Shown here: piece after piece, positions 1 through 22,607 of the stretch
Layout of the letters: every line of letters begins with the position of its first letter
Numbering within the stretch: position 1 is the first letter of the stretch
Origin: Flavobacteriales bacterium
GTDB lineage: Bacteria; Bacteroidota; Bacteroidia; UBA10329
Direction: 5' to 3'
Assembly (NCBI GenBank): GCA_021739625.1
Contig: JAIPBJ010000033.1
Location: 1-32,332, forward strand
DNA length: 32,332 nucleotides
Translations under genes and position numbers: made by a program
Notes under the pieces: generated by a model
Told to the model about the DNA's origin: nothing
Database searches by the model: none
Seen by the model: only the letters and a program-made list of their open reading frames with translations

Positions 1-19
1 GTTCCGCGAGCCGTTCGGG

Positions 20-275
20 AATACTCACGAGCAACGGGGGGGTGCTCCCGAGCACTGGAGGAGTACTCCCGAGCACCCGGGGAGTACTCCCGGGCACTGG
101 GGGGGTACTCCCGGGCACTGGGGGAGTACTCCCGAGCACCGGGGGAGTGCTCCCGAGCAACGGGGGAGCACTCCCGAGCACTGGAGGAGTACTCCCGAAC
201 ACCGGAGGAGTACTCCCGAGCATCAGTCGAGTACTCTGGAGCCTCTTCGGAATTCTCCCAATGAACGGGTCGGTG
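20..275. repeat. 21-bp palindromic tandem repeat array, 12 units
   Basis: The anchor word CTCCCG (or a one- or two-base variant) recurs at 24, 45, 66, 87, 108, 129, 150, 171, 192, 213, 234 and 255, so every interval is exactly 21 bp and there is no indel. A typical unit reads AGTACTCCCGAGCACCGGGGG. Unit junctions form GGGAGTACTCCC, a perfect 12-bp palindrome, and inside the unit CCCG and CGGG can pair across AGCAC. The last two or three units decay. Because 21 is a multiple of 3, long repeat-peptide reading frames appear; I regard these as artefacts. There are no spacers, so this is not a CRISPR array. It may continue to the left of the window. Its function is unknown. Confidence 0.9.
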
Positions 276-4937: not shown

Positions 4938-4980
4938 GGAATGGCTTTTAGCTGCTGGCCTTTAGCTGTGAGCGGCATTG

Positions 4981-5009
4981 GAACTTTGAACCTGAAACCT
5001 TGAACATCA
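4981..5009 (-). repeat. Dispersed stop-codon element, copy A
   Basis: Read on the minus strand this begins TGATGTTCAAGGTTTCAGG and continues to position 4981. Its first three bases are the TGA stop of the hotdog gene. It matches the element at 20628-20656, which starts at the ftsX stop, in 27 of 29 positions. The remaining spacer to 4938 contains a doubled phrase (TTTAGCTGCTGGCC, then TTTAGCTGTGAGC on the plus strand), another short low-complexity word. Confidence 0.8.
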
Positions 5010-5462
5010 GTGCGGTGCATCACTCAAAAAAACCTTCATCTCGCATGATGCCAGCAGTATATCTCCACTGAAAACCTCGCCCAGGATGACGGTCATGTTG
5101 CCTATCACATTCAGTTCTGTGATGGTGGTGTGCAATACTTGTCCCACCACGGGAAGGGCATGCACCTCGAACTCCTTCAGAGCTGCGATGAAGCCTAAGG
5201 GCGGTCTTGAGGGCCCTGCACCTATTGGCATCAGTGCGTAAGCATATCCAGCGCGGATGGCTGAGCTTTGGGCGATGTGCTCAATGAGACCGGAAGGCAG
5301 CAGTCTCCCATCACGGACGAAAAGATTGCCTTCTTCAACAACAAATTCCGCCCTCGATGCCCTGGAGTTGTGCCTCAGCAGCCCATGCACCATCACGATC
5401 GGTTCGCGCTGGGGGATGAACCGTGTAACATCCGCGCGTTCTATGAGAAGTTTCTGCGCCAT
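5007..5462 (-). CDS. Hotdog-fold 3-hydroxyacyl-ACP dehydratase-like protein
   Basis: A 151-aa protein with the FabZ/ApeP-like pattern. It opens with RFIPQREPIVMVHGLL (compare the family LPHRPPMLLLD region) and has a central helix LLPSGLIEHIAQSSAIRAGY with the expected acidic residue Glu61 and AQ. A strand-rich second half ends at MKVFLSD. The GHFP histidine of FabZ is not evident, as in the aryl-polyene ApeP group, so dehydratase activity is likely but not certain. ATG at 5462 (MAQKLLIER) is chosen over a frame that opens further upstream inside darB; it leaves 20 bp after darB. It probably supplies an unsaturated acyl intermediate or dehydrates a ketoreduced one in the same pathway. The stop codon coincides with a dispersed repeat. 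Confidence 0.8.
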   Translation of the reverse strand: MAQKLLIERADVTRFIPQREPIVMVHGLLRHNSRASRAEFVVEEGNLFVRDGRLLPSGLIEHIAQSSAIRAGYAYALMPIGAGPSRPPLGFIAALKEFEVHALPVVGQVLHTTITELNVIGNMTVILGEVFSGDILLASCEMKVFLSDAPH

Positions 5463-5482
5463 GCCGCGAAGGTAGTGCGGCC

Positions 5483-6622
5483 TCAGCACACGGTCATAAG
5501 CGCATAGGAATAAGAGAATCTTGCGCTTTCGGGCACCATCAGCAGGAGCTTCTGTCCGACCTTGAGCCGGCCCGAATGGAAAAGTTCTTCCAGAATAAGG
5601 TATATGGAGGCCGACCCCACGTTGCCTACATTGGTGAGATTGGTGAACCATTTCTCTTCGGGAATCTCCATGCCGCGTCCCTTGAGTTCGTCAAATACCT
5701 TCTCCTTGAAGAAATTGGATGAGAGATGCGGCAGGAACCAATCGACCGTGCCGATGTCGAAACCACGTTTCTCGCAGATCTCCTGTAGGAACTCGCCCCC
5801 AATGGGAACGATGTTCATGCTCAGGAGCTTCACATCCTGTTTCATGCTGAACACGGCCTGATCGACCCATTGCTGTGGTGTGAACTGTTTCCAGCTTTTG
5901 AGCTGGCCGTCCTCGGTCTTGCCCGATGAGGAGTACATGCAGGTGTCCATGCGATGGGCGTATGAGCGGCCATCGATCCACTCGATCTTCAGCGAGATCC
6001 CATTTCTGTTCGGCTCCCTGCGAAGGAGTGCCGCACCGGCACCGTCAGAGAGCATCCAACGGAGAAAGTCCTTTTCAAAACCGATGGCGGGATTCTGTTT
6101 CAGGGCCTCCAGTTTCGCCTGCTCATCGCCACTTTCGAAAAGATGGGCCATCATCATGGGCGATATGAGCTCTGACCCGGCCGTGATGGCACTGTCCGAT
6201 TCACCTGCCAACAGGCTGAGGAATCCGTATTTCATGGCATGAATGCCAGAACAGCAGGCTCCCGAAGGCGACATGAGCTCGGCAGGGAAGTCGAGCAGAC
6301 CGTGGACCATGGCCGTGTGCGATGGCAATGTCTGATCGGGGGCGCTGGTGCCGCACGCGATGATGTCCACATTCCGGATGCGGAACTCTTCGCTGTCGAG
6401 TCCCTTGATGGCATTGACGGCCATCTGGGCGTTGCTGTAGTGAAGGTTTCTCTCGCGGTCAATGGCGTAATAGCGCTGTTGGATGCCATTGTTGCGCAGC
6501 ACGATGGCCCGTGACCGTGAAGGGTTTCCCCCGATCATGCCCAGATAGGACTCCATCTCCTCGTTGGAAACAGGCCCATGGGGCAGGAATTTGGACAGTG
6601 CTGTGATATATACTCCGCTCAA
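5483..6622 (-). CDS. darB: DarB-like beta-ketoacyl-ACP synthase III family condensing enzyme
   Basis: A 379-aa thiolase-fold condensing enzyme. The triad of the KAS III family is intact: Cys124 in SPSGACCSGIHA, His299 in DWFLPHLSSNFF and Asn334 in TNVGNVGSAS. In dialkylresorcinol pathways DarB joins two acyl thioesters and closes a cyclohexanedione ring; the neighbour DarA aromatises it. The adjacent DarA-like gene, rather than the sequence alone, favours DarB over a housekeeping FabH. At 379 aa it is longer than typical FabH (about 320), which also fits. Start MSGVYITALSKFLP matches the usual family opening. A strong promoter lies 38 bp upstream, so the downstream genes can be expressed without darA. 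Confidence 0.85.
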   Translation of the reverse strand: MSGVYITALSKFLPHGPVSNEEMESYLGMIGGNPSRSRAIVLRNNGIQQRYYAIDRERNLHYSNAQMAVNAIKGLDSEEFRIRNVDIIACGTSAPDQTLPSHTAMVHGLLDFPAELMSPSGACCSGIHAMKYGFLSLLAGESDSAITAGSELISPMMMAHLFESGDEQAKLEALKQNPAIGFEKDFLRWMLSDGAGAALLRREPNRNGISLKIEWIDGRSYAHRMDTCMYSSSGKTEDGQLKSWKQFTPQQWVDQAVFSMKQDVKLLSMNIVPIGGEFLQEICEKRGFDIGTVDWFLPHLSSNFFKEKVFDELKGRGMEIPEEKWFTNLTNVGNVGSASIYLILEELFHSGRLKVGQKLLLMVPESARFSYSYALMTVC

Positions 6623-16068: not shown

Positions 16069-16460
16069 AATGGAACTACTGCTTTGCTCCACTTTGTACG
16101 TCTCGCTCACAACGGAGCAACTGCTTTGCTCCACCTTGTCCGTGTCTGGTGCAGCGGAGCACATGCTTTGCCGCACCTTGTCCGTGCCGGGTGCAACGGA
16201 GCAGATGCTTTGCCGCACCTTGTCCGTGCCGGGTGCAACGGAGCAGATGCTTTGCCGCACCTTGTCCGTGTCAGGTGCAACGGAGCAAGTGCTTTGCTCC
16301 ACCTTGTCCGTGTCGGGTGCAACGGAGCAGATGCTTTGCCGCACCTTGTCCGTGTCGGGTGCAACGGAGCAGATGCTTTGCCGCACCTTGAGCGTGTCGG
16401 GTGCAGCGGAGCAACTATTTTACTCCACTTTGTACGTCTCGGTCGCAACGGAGCGATTTA
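16069..16460. repeat. 42-bp tandem repeat array with hairpin units
   Basis: The word AACGGAGC (or AGCGGAGC) recurs at 16111, 16153, 16195, 16237, 16279, 16321, 16363, 16405 and 16447, with a weaker copy at 16069. All nine intervals are exactly 42 bp, with no indels. Each unit holds an imperfect inverted repeat, GGAGCA..TTTGCTCC or GGAGCA..TTTGCCGC, then a CCTTGTCCGTG phrase. Units at 16111 and 16279 have perfect 7-bp arms. All six frames run open through it because 42 is a multiple of 3; I do not consider any of them genes. It fills the spacer between leuS and the glycosyltransferase; 16004-16068 and 16461-16500 contain nothing else recognised. Confidence 0.92.
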
Positions 16461-16500: not shown

Positions 16501-19500
16501 TTACACCACCACATTCACAATCCGCTTCACCACCACGATCACCTTCTTGGGCGTGGCCCCTTCGAGGCGTTTGATCACTTCGGGATGGGCGACCACGATG
16601 GCCTCCACCTCAGCAGCTGAGAGCGAAGTGCTCAGTTCCAGTTGCAGCTTGGTCTTGCCGTTGAAGCTGATGGGATAGCTGAAGCTGTCCTCAACCAGAT
16701 GCGCGGCCTCAAACTTCGGATAGGTGGCAAAGCTGATGCTCTCCCCGTGGCCCAGTTGCTGCCACAGTTCCTCGCAGATATGCGGTGCGAAGCTCGACAG
16801 CACGATGGTCAGCGGTTCCAATATCGCGCGCTTGTTGCACTTGAGCTCCGTCAGTTCGTTCACGCAGATCATGAACTGGCTCACCGAGGTGTTCAACGAC
16901 AGCTTCTCGATGTCGTCCTCCACCTTTTTGATGGTGGCGTGTAGCGCCTTCAGCTCGGGCTTGGTGGGCGCATCGTCACTCACGGAGAACGCATCGCCCG
17001 CGTGGAACAGGTTCCAGAATTTTCTCAGGAAACGGTAGGTGCCCTCGATACCGTTGGTGTTCCACGGTTTGGCATCCTCCAGCGGGCCAAGGAACATCTC
17101 GTAGAGGCGCAGCGTGTCGGCTCCGTAGCGGGAAATGATGTCATCAGGGTTCACCACGTTCCACTTGGACTTAGACATTTTCTCTACCTCTTGGATTGTA
17201 GTGAACGTAGCCGATGAGGAGCTTCTATAGTATGAGTTACCGTGTTCGTCACGGTATTCGGGATCTACCCAACCAAGTTTGTGCTTTTGAATATCCTGAT
17301 TTGATAGGAGGGTGTTCTGATACCAGAGACCTTCGGAACACAGGAAAATGGTATCCCTAAATTGAGAGTGGTCAGCAATCAATTTTTCCAAGTTAACCAG
17401 CCCTTTATCAACACAATCAATGGGCACGTTTTGCGGTGTACTTTGAATCAATTCATTATCGACATCGATACCTCCCTTTCCGAACATTGAATGAACAAGC
17501 TCTGCGCTAACTAGTATAGAGTAAACCCGCTTATCCCCAAAACTCAAGAATATCGGCAGTTCCATTTCTCTACCAATCAATGCCCCCGAAGTTTCGCTCC
17601 TCGAATGGTGGCGATAAGCCTTATCCGAAACCCCCTGAATCATCCCCTGATTCACCAGCTTCTTCGCAGGTTCATCAAACGGCAGATACCCAAGGTCTTT
17701 GAGGAACTTGGTCCAGAAGCGCACATAGAGCAGGTGGCCTGTGGCGTGCTCCGATCCGCCCACATAGAGGTCCACATTCTGCCAGTAGTCGATGGCCTCC
17801 TTTGAGGCGAAGGCACCGTCATTCTTCGGGTCCATGTAGCGCAGGAAATACCAACTGCTGCCCGCCCAGCCTGGCATGGTGCTCAGTTCAAATGGGAAAA
17901 GTTCATTTTTTGGTTGAAACAAACCCTTAAGCCACACAAAAAAACCTCGTACTTTTTCAACGATGAAGTTCAACAGAAACTGAAAACCTCTTGGTTTATC
18001 AGTATCCGCCTTTTGTTCATTCTGAGTATTTCGCACTCCAAGTTTCGGGTCATAACCCCATCCCTTTGCACGGCCAAGGGGCGGTTCTCCAGTTTCCGTG
18101 GGAAGATATTCATCGATCTCGGGCAGGGTGACGGGCAGGTGCTCCTCCTTCACGGGGTAAGGAATGCCGTCCTTGTAATAGATCGGAATCGGTTCGCCCC
18201 AGTAGCGCTGCCTGCCGAACACCGCATCGCGCAGGCGGTAGTTGATGCGGCCCTTGCCGATGCCCAAAGCCTCCATCTTGGCAATGGCGCGCTTGATGGC
18301 CTCTTTCACAGGAAGGCCGTTGAGGAAGTCTGAGTTCTCCAACACGCCCTCTTTGCTCTCATTGGCACCCTTGCTCAGCTCCGAACCTTCGATCACTGAT
18401 GGTATCGGCAGCCCGAAATGCGTGGCAAAATTCCAGTCGCGCTGGTCACCACTCGGCACCGACATCACCGCACCGGTGCCATAGCCCGCCAACACATAGT
18501 CACCGATCCATATAGGAATAGGCGACCCTGTGAACGGATGCTCGGCATAGGCCCCAGTGAACGCGCCAGAAACCGTCTTCACATCGGCCATGCGGTCTCT
18601 ATCGCTACGCGCTTTGGCCTTTGCGATATAGGCTTCCACCTCGGCCTTCTGCGTAGCGGTGGTTATCTGAGAGACCAGCTCATGCTCCGGTGCCAAGACC
18701 ATGAAGGAGACTCCGAAAATCGTATCAGGCCGCGTAGTGAACACGTCAACCTTAAACCTTGAACCTTGAACCTTAAACCCTAAAAGCGCTCCTTCCGAAC
18801 GTCCTATCCAATTCCGCTGCTGCTCCTTCAGGCTCTCGCTCCATTCGAGACCGTCAAGCCCATCCAACAGCCGTTGGGCGTAGGCCGTGATGCGCATGCT
18901 CCACTGCATCATCAGCTTGCGCTCCACGGGGTGGCCGCCACGCTCGCTGAACCCGTCCTTCACCTCATCGTTGGCCAGCACGGTTCCCAAGGCTGGACAC
19001 CAGTTCACGTATGCCTCGCTCAGATAGGCGATGCGGTAGTTGAGCAGGACGGTCTGCTGCTTCGCCCCGTCCCAACTGTTCCATTCATGGGCTGTGAAGA
19101 GAGGCGTTTCATCGCAATGCGCATTCACATCTCTGTTGCCGTGCTGCTCAAATTCCTTGACCAGCCGCTCGATGGGCCGGGCGGCATCCGCGTTCTTGCA
19201 ATACCAGGCATCATAGAGCTTGAGAAAAATCCACTGCGTCCATTTGTAGTAGGATGGGTCGGAGGTGCGCACCTCGCGATCCCAGTCGAAGGAGAACCCG
19301 ATACTGTCCATCTGCCTGCGATAGGTGGCAATATTCTCCTCGGTGGTCTTGGCAGGATGCTGCCCCGTCTGGATGGCATACTGCTCTGCTGGTAGTCCGA
19401 AGCTATCATAGCCCATCGGGTGCAGCACATTGAAGCCCTTCAAGCGCTTGTAGCGCGACACGATATCAGAGGCGATATACCCCAGCGGATGGCCCACATG

Positions 19501-19751: not shown

Positions 19752-20630
19752 ATGGCCAGAGCAGAGGAAAAAGCGCACCGTAGGAAGATACTCGCCAGCA
19801 ACCTGACGGCTGTGGTCAGCATCAGTCTCGTGCTGTTCATGCTGGGCCTGTTGGGTCTGGTGATGCTCTATGCCGATGCGCTTTCCCGCCACGTGAAGGA
19901 GAACATCGGCTTCACCATCTACATGAAGGACGATGCCAAGGAGGCCGACATCCTCCAGTTCCAGAAATTCCTCGATGCCTCTGACTTTGTGCGCAGCACA
20001 CGCTATGTGAGCAAAGAGGACGCTGCCGAATACATGAAGGAGGCCTTGGGCGAGGACTTCCTCGGATTCATGGGCTACAACCCGCTCAAGCGCTCCATAG
20101 ATGTGCGGGTGAAGGGTGAATTCGCAGATGCGGACGGGATGATCAACATCCAATCGGAACTGCTCAAGAACGCATTCATACACGAGATCGACTACCCTGT
20201 GGACCTCATCAGGGTCATCAACCGCAATGTGCGCAAGGCGGGCATCGTCATCATGGTGTTCTGCGGACTGCTGTCGCTCATCGCCATCAGCCTTATCAAC
20301 AACAATATCCGTCTGACGGTCTATTCCAAACGGTTCCTGATCAACACCATGAAGCTGGTGGGGGCCACACAGGCGTTCATCCGCAGGCCGTTCGTCATCG
20401 AGGGCGTGCTGCGCGGACTGGCAGGTGCGTTCGTGGCCTGCATCCTGTTGGCATTGGTCATTCAATTGGCCCATGGGCAGATCCCAGAGCTTTTCGGGTT
20501 GGAGAACGTGGAGATAGTAGGCACGCTGTTCGTGGCCGTTCTCGCCCTCGGATTCCTCATCTCATTCCTCTCCACCACCTTCGCAGTGCGGAAGTACCTG
20601 CGGTTGAAGGTGGATGAGCTTTATTATTGA
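19752..20630 (+). CDS. ftsX: Cell division protein FtsX
   Basis: FtsX is the membrane subunit of the FtsEX complex, which controls peptidoglycan hydrolases at the division septum. The 292-aa product has the standard topology: a cytoplasmic basic N-terminus, a first membrane helix (about 18-41, VVSISLVLFMLGLLGLVML), a large periplasmic loop (about 45-165) with NIGFTIYMKDDAK and SKEDAAEYMKEALGEDF, and three more helices near 167-187, 215-238 and 257-280. The tail FAVRKYLRLKVDELYY is typical of Bacteroidota members. No ftsE is adjacent. It is divergent from leuS with 110 bp between starts, and heads a run ftsX-DUF3098-uppP-truB that I recall as conserved in this phylum. The stop codon is the first three bases of a dispersed repeat. 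Confidence 0.94.
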   Translation: MARAEEKAHRRKILASNLTAVVSISLVLFMLGLLGLVMLYADALSRHVKENIGFTIYMKDDAKEADILQFQKFLDASDFVRSTRYVSKEDAAEYMKEALGEDFLGFMGYNPLKRSIDVRVKGEFADADGMINIQSELLKNAFIHEIDYPVDLIRVINRNVRKAGIVIMVFCGLLSLIAISLINNNIRLTVYSKRFLINTMKLVGATQAFIRRPFVIEGVLRGLAGAFVACILLALVIQLAHGQIPELFGLENVEIVGTLFVAVLALGFLISFLSTTFAVRKYLRLKVDELYY

Positions 20631-20716
20631 TGTTTAAGGTTTCAGGTTCAAAGTTTAAAGTTGACCAAACCAAGAACCGTCTCAAACCTTAAACATCAAA
20701 CCTTAAACTTTGAACT
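20628..20716 (+). repeat. Dispersed stop-codon element, copy B, with inverted partner
   Basis: Starting exactly at the ftsX TGA it reads TGATGTTTAAGGTTTCAGG and continues to 20656, 27 of 29 bases identical to copy A at 4981-5009. An inverted copy follows: the first 15 bases (20628-20642) pair perfectly with 20684-20698, and TTCAAAGTTTAA (20647-20658) pairs with 20703-20714. The spacer transcript can thus form a long AU-rich hairpin between ftsX and the DUF3098 gene. Confidence 0.8.
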
Positions 20717-20976: not shown

Positions 20977-21753
20977 ATGAGTTGGATTGAAGCACTCATC
21001 CTTGCCATTGTAGAGGGCATCACGGAATTCCTGCCCATTTCGTCCACCGGACACATGATCATCGCCTCGGCACTGATGGGCATCAACGAGAGCCCTTTTG
21101 TGAAGGTGTTCGAGGTCAATATCCAGTTCGGGGCCATTCTGTCGGTAGTGGCGCTATACTGGAAACGGTTCTTCCAGTCGTTCGATTTCTATTTCAAACT
21201 CGTAGTGGCCTTCCTTCCGGCCGCTGTGATCGGCCTGCTGCTGAACGATTACATTGATGCCATGTTGGAAAGCGTGACCGTGGTGGCGGTTTCGCTGCTT
21301 GTTGGCGGTGTCTTTCTTCTTTTTGTGGACAGGATATTCAACAAGGTGGAGCATCATGAGATCACCTACAGGAACGGCTTTATCATCGGCTGTTTCCAAT
21401 GCCTTGCCATGATTCCGGGAGTGTCGCGCTCTGCGGCCAGTATCATAGGTGGCATGGCGTTGAAGTATGACCGAAAGACGGCCGCAGAGTTCTCGTTCTT
21501 CCTCGCGGTGCCCACCATGTTCGCAGCGGCCTCCTACAAGCTGCTCAAAGGCTACAAGGACATCACCTCTGACGACCTTGGCATCCTGCTGTTCGGCAAC
21601 GTGGTGGCCTTCCTTGTGGCCATGGCCGCCATCAAGTTCTTCATCGCGTTCCTCACCAGATACGGGTTCAAGATGTTCGGATGGTACCGGATCATTCTGG
21701 GCACCATCCTGTTGGTGATGCTGGCATTGGGCTACGATCTGAGCATTGTCTAA
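20977..21753 (+). CDS. uppP: Undecaprenyl-diphosphatase
   Basis: UppP (BacA) dephosphorylates undecaprenyl diphosphate at the membrane, recycling the lipid carrier for peptidoglycan and other envelope polymers. The 258-aa product has both catalytic boxes: [14 protein letters not shown] (residues 13-26) and PGVSRSAAS (147-155, with Arg151). It has about eight membrane helices and the usual family length. ATG at 20977 is three bases after the DUF3098 stop. Downstream, after 95 bp of repeat-derived spacer, comes truB. The context ftsX-DUF3098-uppP fits a cell-wall and division operon. Confidence 0.96.
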
Positions 21754-21848
21754 AATAGTTCAAGGTTCAAAGTTTATAGTTCAAAGTCCTTTCAGCTGCT
21801 GAAACGCTGATCTGCTGATAACCTGACCGCCTAAACTTCCCTCGTCCC
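21754..21848 (+). repeat. Mosaic repeat spacer between uppP and truB
   Basis: Three different short repeat words sit end to end. The first is TTCAAGGTTCAAAGTTTATAG (21759 onward, related to the elements after ftsX and the hotdog gene). The second is CAGCTGCTG...GATCTGCTGATAACC. The third is CCCTCGTCCCATGTCCCTCG, which continues into truB. No promoter motif was recognised. Confidence 0.7.
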
Positions 21849-22607
21849 ATGTCCCTCGTCCCTTCTCCCTTCAACTTCAAAGAGGGCGAGACCCTGCTGT
21901 TCGACAAGCCCATTGGCTGGACCTCCTTCCAGATGGTGAACCGTGTGCGGGGCATGATTCGCAGGCTTATCAATGAGCGCAATATCAAAGTGGGCCATGC
22001 GGGCACGCTCGACCCGTTGGCAACAGGTCTGCTGGTGCTCTGCACAGGCCATTCGACCAAGAAGATCGATGCCATTCAGGCAGCAGAGAAGCAGTACACA
22101 GGCACCATCTTCCTCGGTGCCACGAGGCCCAGCTACGACATGGAGACACCCGTGGACGCGACCTTCCCCACAGAAAACGTCACGGAGGACAGCATCCGTT
22201 CCGCTGCGAAGACCTTCGAAGGGGCGATTGACCAGATTCCGCCCGTGTTCTCTGCCAAAATGGTGGAAGGCGAGCGCAGCTACGACCTTGCCCGCAAAGG
22301 CGAAGCGAAAGAACTCGCGGCCAAGCGCGTCACCATCACAGCATTCCTTGTCACTGATGTGCGTAGGGTGGAAGGTGGCATCGAGGCCGATTTTGACGTG
22401 ACCTGCTCCAAAGGCACCTACATCCGCTCACTGGCCCACGACCTCGGCCAGAAGCTGGGCTGTGGCGGATATCTGCAAAGCCTGCGCAGGACACGCATCG
22501 GGGAACACAAGGTGGAGGACGCCCTCACTGCCGAGCAGTTCCATTTCATCCTCTTCGGAGAAGGGCCACGGAAGGAGTTTGATGGCCGGATCGAGGGAAG
22601 GGACTGA
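21849..22607 (+). CDS. truB: tRNA pseudouridine(55) synthase
   Basis: TruB converts U55 of tRNAs to pseudouridine in the T-loop. The 252-aa product contains the family boxes: LLFDKPIGWTSF (17-28), the catalytic-Asp motif GHAGTLDPLATGLL with Asp55, the KQYTG strand, IPPVFSAKMVEGERSYDLAR, and CSKGTYIRSLAHDLG. Length is normal for Bacteroidota. The chosen ATG lies inside a CCCTCGTCCC repeat, so the first residues SLVPSP are encoded by repeat DNA; no other in-frame ATG is available before the KEGETLLFDKP core. It ends the ftsX-DUF3098-uppP-truB run and converges on the methyltransferase gene, 92 bp apart. Confidence 0.96.
   Translation: MSLVPSPFNFKEGETLLFDKPIGWTSFQMVNRVRGMIRRLINERNIKVGHAGTLDPLATGLLVLCTGHSTKKIDAIQAAEKQYTGTIFLGATRPSYDMETPVDATFPTENVTEDSIRSAAKTFEGAIDQIPPVFSAKMVEGERSYDLARKGEAKELAAKRVTITAFLVTDVRRVEGGIEADFDVTCSKGTYIRSLAHDLGQKLGCGGYLQSLRRTRIGEHKVEDALTAEQFHFILFGEGPRKEFDGRIEGRD

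Follow-up and report, generated by a model that had tools for sequence, protein, structure and literature searches.

A repeated word at two gene ends belongs to a heptanucleotide array

The window analysed here comprises 32,332 nucleotides of DNA from a Flavobacteriales bacterium (assembly GCA_021739625.1, contig JAIPBJ010000033.1) and is the whole of contig C36 of a genome of 3.69 Mb in 179 contigs (G000). It harbors, among other genes, a hotdog-type gene (5007-5651, minus strand), leuS, ftsX (19752-20630, plus strand), uppP and truB. It was described in a first-pass annotation that the hotdog-type gene and ftsX end in the same word, and this was confirmed: the 29-mers at 5009-4981 (minus strand) and 20628-20656 (plus strand) are identical at 27 of 29 bases, and the TGA within the word is the stop codon of both genes. 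TGATGTTYAAGGTTTCAGG matched exactly at both sites, and with this 19-base core three matches at up to three mismatches were obtained in the window (0.02 expected). When the genome was searched for TGATGTTyAAGGTTTCAGG, these two copies were the sole exact ones, while 19 matches were detected at up to three mismatches. The related copies reported after uppP and within leuS were likewise recovered, the former starting 3 nt past the uppP TAA (21757-21787, plus strand) and the latter running on the leuS coding strand (18748-18779).

Two properties of the word had been overlooked. It belongs to an array of period 7, which was identified by Tandem Repeats Finder and a repeat finder as the degenerate heptamer (GTTYMAR)n; the ftsX array reads GTTTAAG GTTTCAG GTTCAAA GTTTAAA GTT. 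Further, the ftsX copy is opposed by an inverted partner at 20698-20716, reaching to about 20680, and the ftsX spacer is therefore a heptad hairpin (RNA fold MFE -24.6, z -4.9). A mobile word present in two copies was rejected, as the copies in the window represent a single phase of a more extensive heptad family. No matches in the window were obtained with Rfam and tRNA scans. The following features were located:

4942-4968, minus strand: second heptad family, (CAGCTAA AGGCCAG)2, in the spacer of the hotdog-type gene before the next gene (Tandem Repeats Finder period 14)
4978-5005, minus strand: GTTYMAR array of 4 units, 1 nt past the stop of the hotdog-type gene (TGA, 5009-5007)
18748-18779, minus strand: GTTYMAR array within leuS, in frame (FKVQGSRFKV), with an equal length of other sequence in congeners
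20632-20662, plus strand: GTTYMAR array, 5' arm, 1 nt past the ftsX TGA stop (20628-20630)
20680-20716, minus strand: 3' arm of the hairpin in the ftsX spacer, formed by an inverted GTTYMAR array whose end lies 8 nt short of the ATG (20725) of the next gene, a DUF3098-type one
21757-21787, plus strand: GTTYMAR array, 3 nt past the uppP TAA stop (21751-21753)
21838-21870, plus strand: CTCGTCC-type heptad array spanning the predicted truB start (21849) and encoding extra N-terminal residues (Tandem Repeats Finder period 7/14, comparison with congener G006)

The GTTYMAR family in the genome and in relatives

A search for two perfect units yielded 80 overlapping matches on both strands of the genome, which together with the three-unit matches resolve into about 48 arrays within the genome stretches retrieved. 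Like the heptamers of Rehm et al. (2015), these arrays consist of at least two tandem 7-nt units that are degenerate at fixed positions. The census covered fetched stretches, most of which were chosen for carrying GTTYMAR, so that it is uninformative on the share of spacers occupied. The family recurs across Bacteroidia, but among 59 relatives it is patchy, being absent from most and variable inside the genus; G013, G019 and G054 are rich in arrays and G028 less so. Lags of 7, 14 and 21 exceeded all other lags in comparison to shuffles when spacers were sampled from G000, G013 and G019, and a weak signal was seen in G028. A control with the reversed pattern was contaminated, as GTTTCAA repeats read nearly alike backwards, so comparisons were made against shuffles and random placement. 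Heptad arrays are thus present in this bacterium and in some distant relatives, and slippage alone fails to explain a GTTYMAR consensus that is common to distant families.

Placement and orientation at gene ends

Placement was analyzed in G000, G013 and G019, which belong to different families, with genes called by a home-made hexamer finder that had been trained on these loci. Sense and antisense arrays lying no more than 5 nt from a stop numbered 16 and 1 in G000, 8 and 0 in G013 and 8 and 0 in G019, amounting to 32 sense arrays and a single antisense array (p ~8e-9). Random placement in the same spacers of G000 gave 3.8 sense and 3.9 antisense arrays, and 16 was reached in none of 2000 trials. 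Copies were hence neither randomly placed relative to stops nor equally distributed over both orientations, in line with the proposal of a dispersed element that is enriched at gene ends and fixed in orientation. For unpaired arms whose nearest gene edge is a stop, outward and inward reading was found in a ratio of 24:6, and the outward arms beside stops comprise 24 single and 18 paired ones.

Arrays generally read outward from the gene edge, and just past a stop the sense strand is the one with more G than C. They lie near stops on the coding strand and near starts on the non-coding strand, as described by Rehm et al. (2015). Where the nearest edge is a start, outward orientation also prevailed (33:6); since array-free spacers display the same skew at starts, the start side is uninformative and the evidence comes from the stop side. 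Short ancestral spacers account for part of the closeness to stops: with assumed ancestral spacers of at most 10 nt, stop distances would hardly differ from chance in G013 and G019 and would exceed it weakly in G000, and with spacers of at least 20 nt they become increasingly improbable by chance. The orientation bias is independent of ancestral spacer length.

Stop codons precede the arrays

With a chimeric query of gene ends, orthologues were recovered from the congener G006, which has one array hit. According to the first-pass annotation, the stop codon would come with the element. This was contradicted by the comparison, as the G006 orthologues end at the same codon in 13 of 15 comparable genes; in the remaining two, the hotdog-type gene and L086, the end is shifted by 1-2 codons. 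In the congeners in which the end of ftsX is readable it is LYY-stop, at the same place and without an array, and the next ATG follows 27 nt on in G006 and 2 nt on in the others. The overlap TGA-T-GTT was seen at the hotdog-type gene, at ftsX and in a third case at L095. All three stop codons, TGA, TAA and TAG, are found in front of arrays, which makes the shared TGAT partly a coincidence; together with the conserved ends in G006, this shows that at the loci compared the stop is not provided by the array.

In G006, genes may overlap or be separated by up to 75 nt, mostly by 16-51 nt, whereas array-bearing spacers mostly measure 70-120 nt. Arrays were gained or expanded beside pre-existing stops, in spacers that are short in the congener. 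At L107, a 14-nt array precedes a TTG start where G006 has about 38 nt. Arrays fill or replace short pre-existing spacers.

Facing arrays and predicted hairpins

Opposite adjacent arrays at most 120 nt apart were always arranged as GTTYMAR followed by its complement, in a ratio of 17:0 with strict detection and of 27:0 with loose detection in G000, G013, G019 and G028. Twelve spacers with facing pairs are predicted to fold with z-values of -3.9 to -8.6, and at L104 (2001-2076) the hairpin fills the gap from stop to stop between two convergent genes. Among the long hairpins in sampled spacers, the arms had period 7 in 12 of 23 in G013 and 6 of 8 in G019, whose loci were chosen for arrays, in 1 of 11 in G028, and in none of 5 in an unselected sample of G000. 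Separately, an identical hairpin arm, CACAAAGGCACACGAAGA, was observed in unrelated spacers at L146 (18415-18695) and L152 (2635-2913); this palindromic repeat is dispersed but lacks period 7.

Arrays within coding sequence

Heptads also occur within coding sequence, namely in leuS, in truB and in two predicted signal peptides. In leuS the array was swapped in at equal length: RSEG and VFTTRPDT are separated by 15 residues in G000, G006 and G007 alike. The CTCGTCC heptads at 21838-21870 give truB the residues MSLVPSP ahead of the conserved FNFxEGE. At L103 (2003-2028) and L110 (2000-2032), GTTYMAR arrays encode the n-region of the predicted signal peptide of the next gene (MGSRFKVQG... and MMRFKVQGSKFKV...), and both are absent from G006.

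Unrelated heptad families

Further period-7 families were detected in spacers, with units such as GAGATATGAGATGT, GTAGGCA, AGTTGTTGG and AAGCTAA. For non-GTTYMAR arrays near stops, the sense strand carried more G than C in 25 cases and the reverse was seen in 7 (17:2 within about 10 nt). The same count in array-free spacers was 156:190 (Fisher p 0.0004 versus 25:7). Unrelated heptad families thus follow the same strand rule at stops. Their closeness to stops was weaker, with 3, 7, 5 and 2 observed versus 1.2, 3.7, 1.4 and 1.1 expected.

Other repeats were noticed as well. A 21-nt tandem repeat of ten copies with the palindromic core GGGAGTACTCCC lies at the contig end (window positions 17-236), and a 42-nt tandem repeat of eight copies with GCAAATGCTTTGC-like palindromes at 16110-16454; these periods equal three and six times 7. 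At L197, from Bacteroidetes GWF2_35_48, the ftsX spacer contains AGTCGGC/AGTCAGC heptads, and at L070 AATCTAA heptads begin directly at the ftsX stop.

Comparison with known repeats

The closest published counterparts are the heptamers of Xanthomonas (GGGAATC) and Nostoc (GGGGAYT), which Rehm et al. (2015; PMC4692102) described 0-50 bp from stops on the coding strand and 0-50 bp from starts on the non-coding strand. They resemble the GTTYMAR arrays in being degenerate, of few copies, biased to intergenic regions and subject to the same orientation rule; some overlap stop codons, and inverted pairs are mentioned (PMC4692102). The published heptamers belong to other phyla and were binned at 0-50 bp, whereas GTTYMAR arrays lie mostly 0-5 nt from the stop and frequently form facing hairpin pairs. 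In addition, the Xanthomonas and Nostoc units contain GGG tracts and form G-quadruplexes in vitro, whereas the GTTYMAR unit allows no run above GG and lacks tracts capable of a quadruplex, which therefore cannot be the shared cause.

TAACTGA direct repeats were reported from Beggiatoaceae, Cyanobacteria and five Bacteroidetes, with 13 sets overlapping stops (MacGregor, 2015; PMC4679880). These are likewise intergenic heptamer direct repeats, but they have one fixed unit, lie mostly just upstream of starts in forward sense and show almost no inverted pairs; the unit studied here is GTTYMAR. The heptanucleotide short tandem repeats of cyanobacteria (Calothrix), which are mentioned in PMC4692102, are dispersed 7-nt tandems as well. 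Heptad bias was attributed to polymerase slippage (Mrazek, 2007, as cited in PMC4692102 and PMC4679880).

REP elements share with the arrays that they are short palindromes in many intergenic copies, some within 15 nt past a stop. They differ in that the GTTYMAR arms consist of heptad repeats of variable length, have no convincing RAYT link and are commonly single, the single ones being in the majority among outward arms at stops. By eye, no GTAG/CGTC tag was seen at the palindrome foot in the listed array edges. Among the open-access papers searched, none on such arrays across Bacteroidia was found.

Origin of the arrays

Taken together, we consider it probable that the repeated word belongs to genome-wide degenerate heptanucleotide arrays, (GTTYMAR)n, that occupy short spacers singly or as facing pairs, read outward, sometimes overwrite tolerant coding sequence, and arose by slippage, reshuffling and fold-back. 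Units would multiply by 7-nt slippage and may be reshuffled and spread between loci, while a facing arm would be created by fold-back or template switching, so that facing pairs would fold into hairpins of about 50-90 nt. The persistence of arrays beside gene ends presumably reflects their exclusion, for the most part, from coding sequence and leaders, and something appears to favor the G-richer strand as the sense strand past a stop. Should the upstream mRNA be affected, for instance through a REP-like action of the hairpin near the stop, this would be secondary. As to what acts at this position, a tentative idea, to which we give a small but real chance, is that the nascent transcript is free of ribosomes past the stop, and that a G-richer sense strand there can form an R-loop or stalled structure promoting 7-nt slippage and fold-back, a mechanism that would be common to unrelated heptads.

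The first-pass annotation was correct in so far as the family is dispersed, enriched at gene ends and fixed in orientation. That a REP-like or miniature element, a palindromic heptad hairpin mobilized in trans (e.g. by a Y1/RAYT transposase), inserts preferentially at gene ends is nevertheless unlikely. The constant order within palindromic pairs, the patchy, lineage-specific gains and the TGAT on both flanks of the ftsX insert would fit such an element. A MITE would have fixed terminal inverted repeats and a target-site duplication; TGAT on both sides was seen at ftsX only, and other array edges vary. Against a mobile element, neither the length of the arrays nor their end nor their phase with respect to the stop is fixed, many are single arms, they can replace sequence instead of inserting, and several unrelated heptad sequences act alike. 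A Y1/RAYT transposase was rejected as mobilizer, since copy numbers of PF01797 do not follow the arrays: the correlation was weak (Spearman 0.27), the 26 array hits of G004 are accompanied by no PF01797 match, and the 12 matches of G037 by no array hit. The first-pass proposal of an element that brings the stop codon along when it lands at a gene end is scarcely credible, as the exact TGA overlap in two genes of the window and the TGA-T-GTT at L095 are set against gene ends that are mostly conserved in the congener without the array and against the use of all three stop codons.

Selection could alternatively act on the RNA. Stem-loops maintained just past stops for ribosome stalling or for control of translation or mRNA stability would account for the sense orientation, the closeness to stops and the strong predicted hairpins, and E. 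coli REPs within 15 nt of a stop were reported to affect translation (PMC12306157). This explanation is quite unlikely, because more than half of the outward arms beside stops are partnerless (24 single versus 18 paired) and form no obvious hairpin, array position is not conserved among congeners, and similar arrays occur before starts and within coding sequence. The latter also argues against intrinsic transcription terminators formed from AT-rich hairpins. Hairpins past stops are typical for terminators, and the one at L104 exactly fills the gap between convergent genes, but as read from the sequence no T-run follows the 3' arm at ftsX (GATTTAAAATGG) and the downstream gene begins 8 nt later, which makes this a very improbable reading.

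Implications

An outward, sense-after-stop rule was previously reported for the units of Xanthomonas and Nostoc and was discussed by means of their G-quadruplexes. Its occurrence in Bacteroidia with a unit that forms no quadruplex, and with further unrelated heptads, suggests that the cause is more general. If true, the R-loop reading would explain stop-proximal sense arrays in several phyla with non-quadruplex units. For the genomes that carry them, the heptad arrays show how short operon spacers grow and that genes can take up such repeats as N-terminal or predicted signal-peptide sequence.
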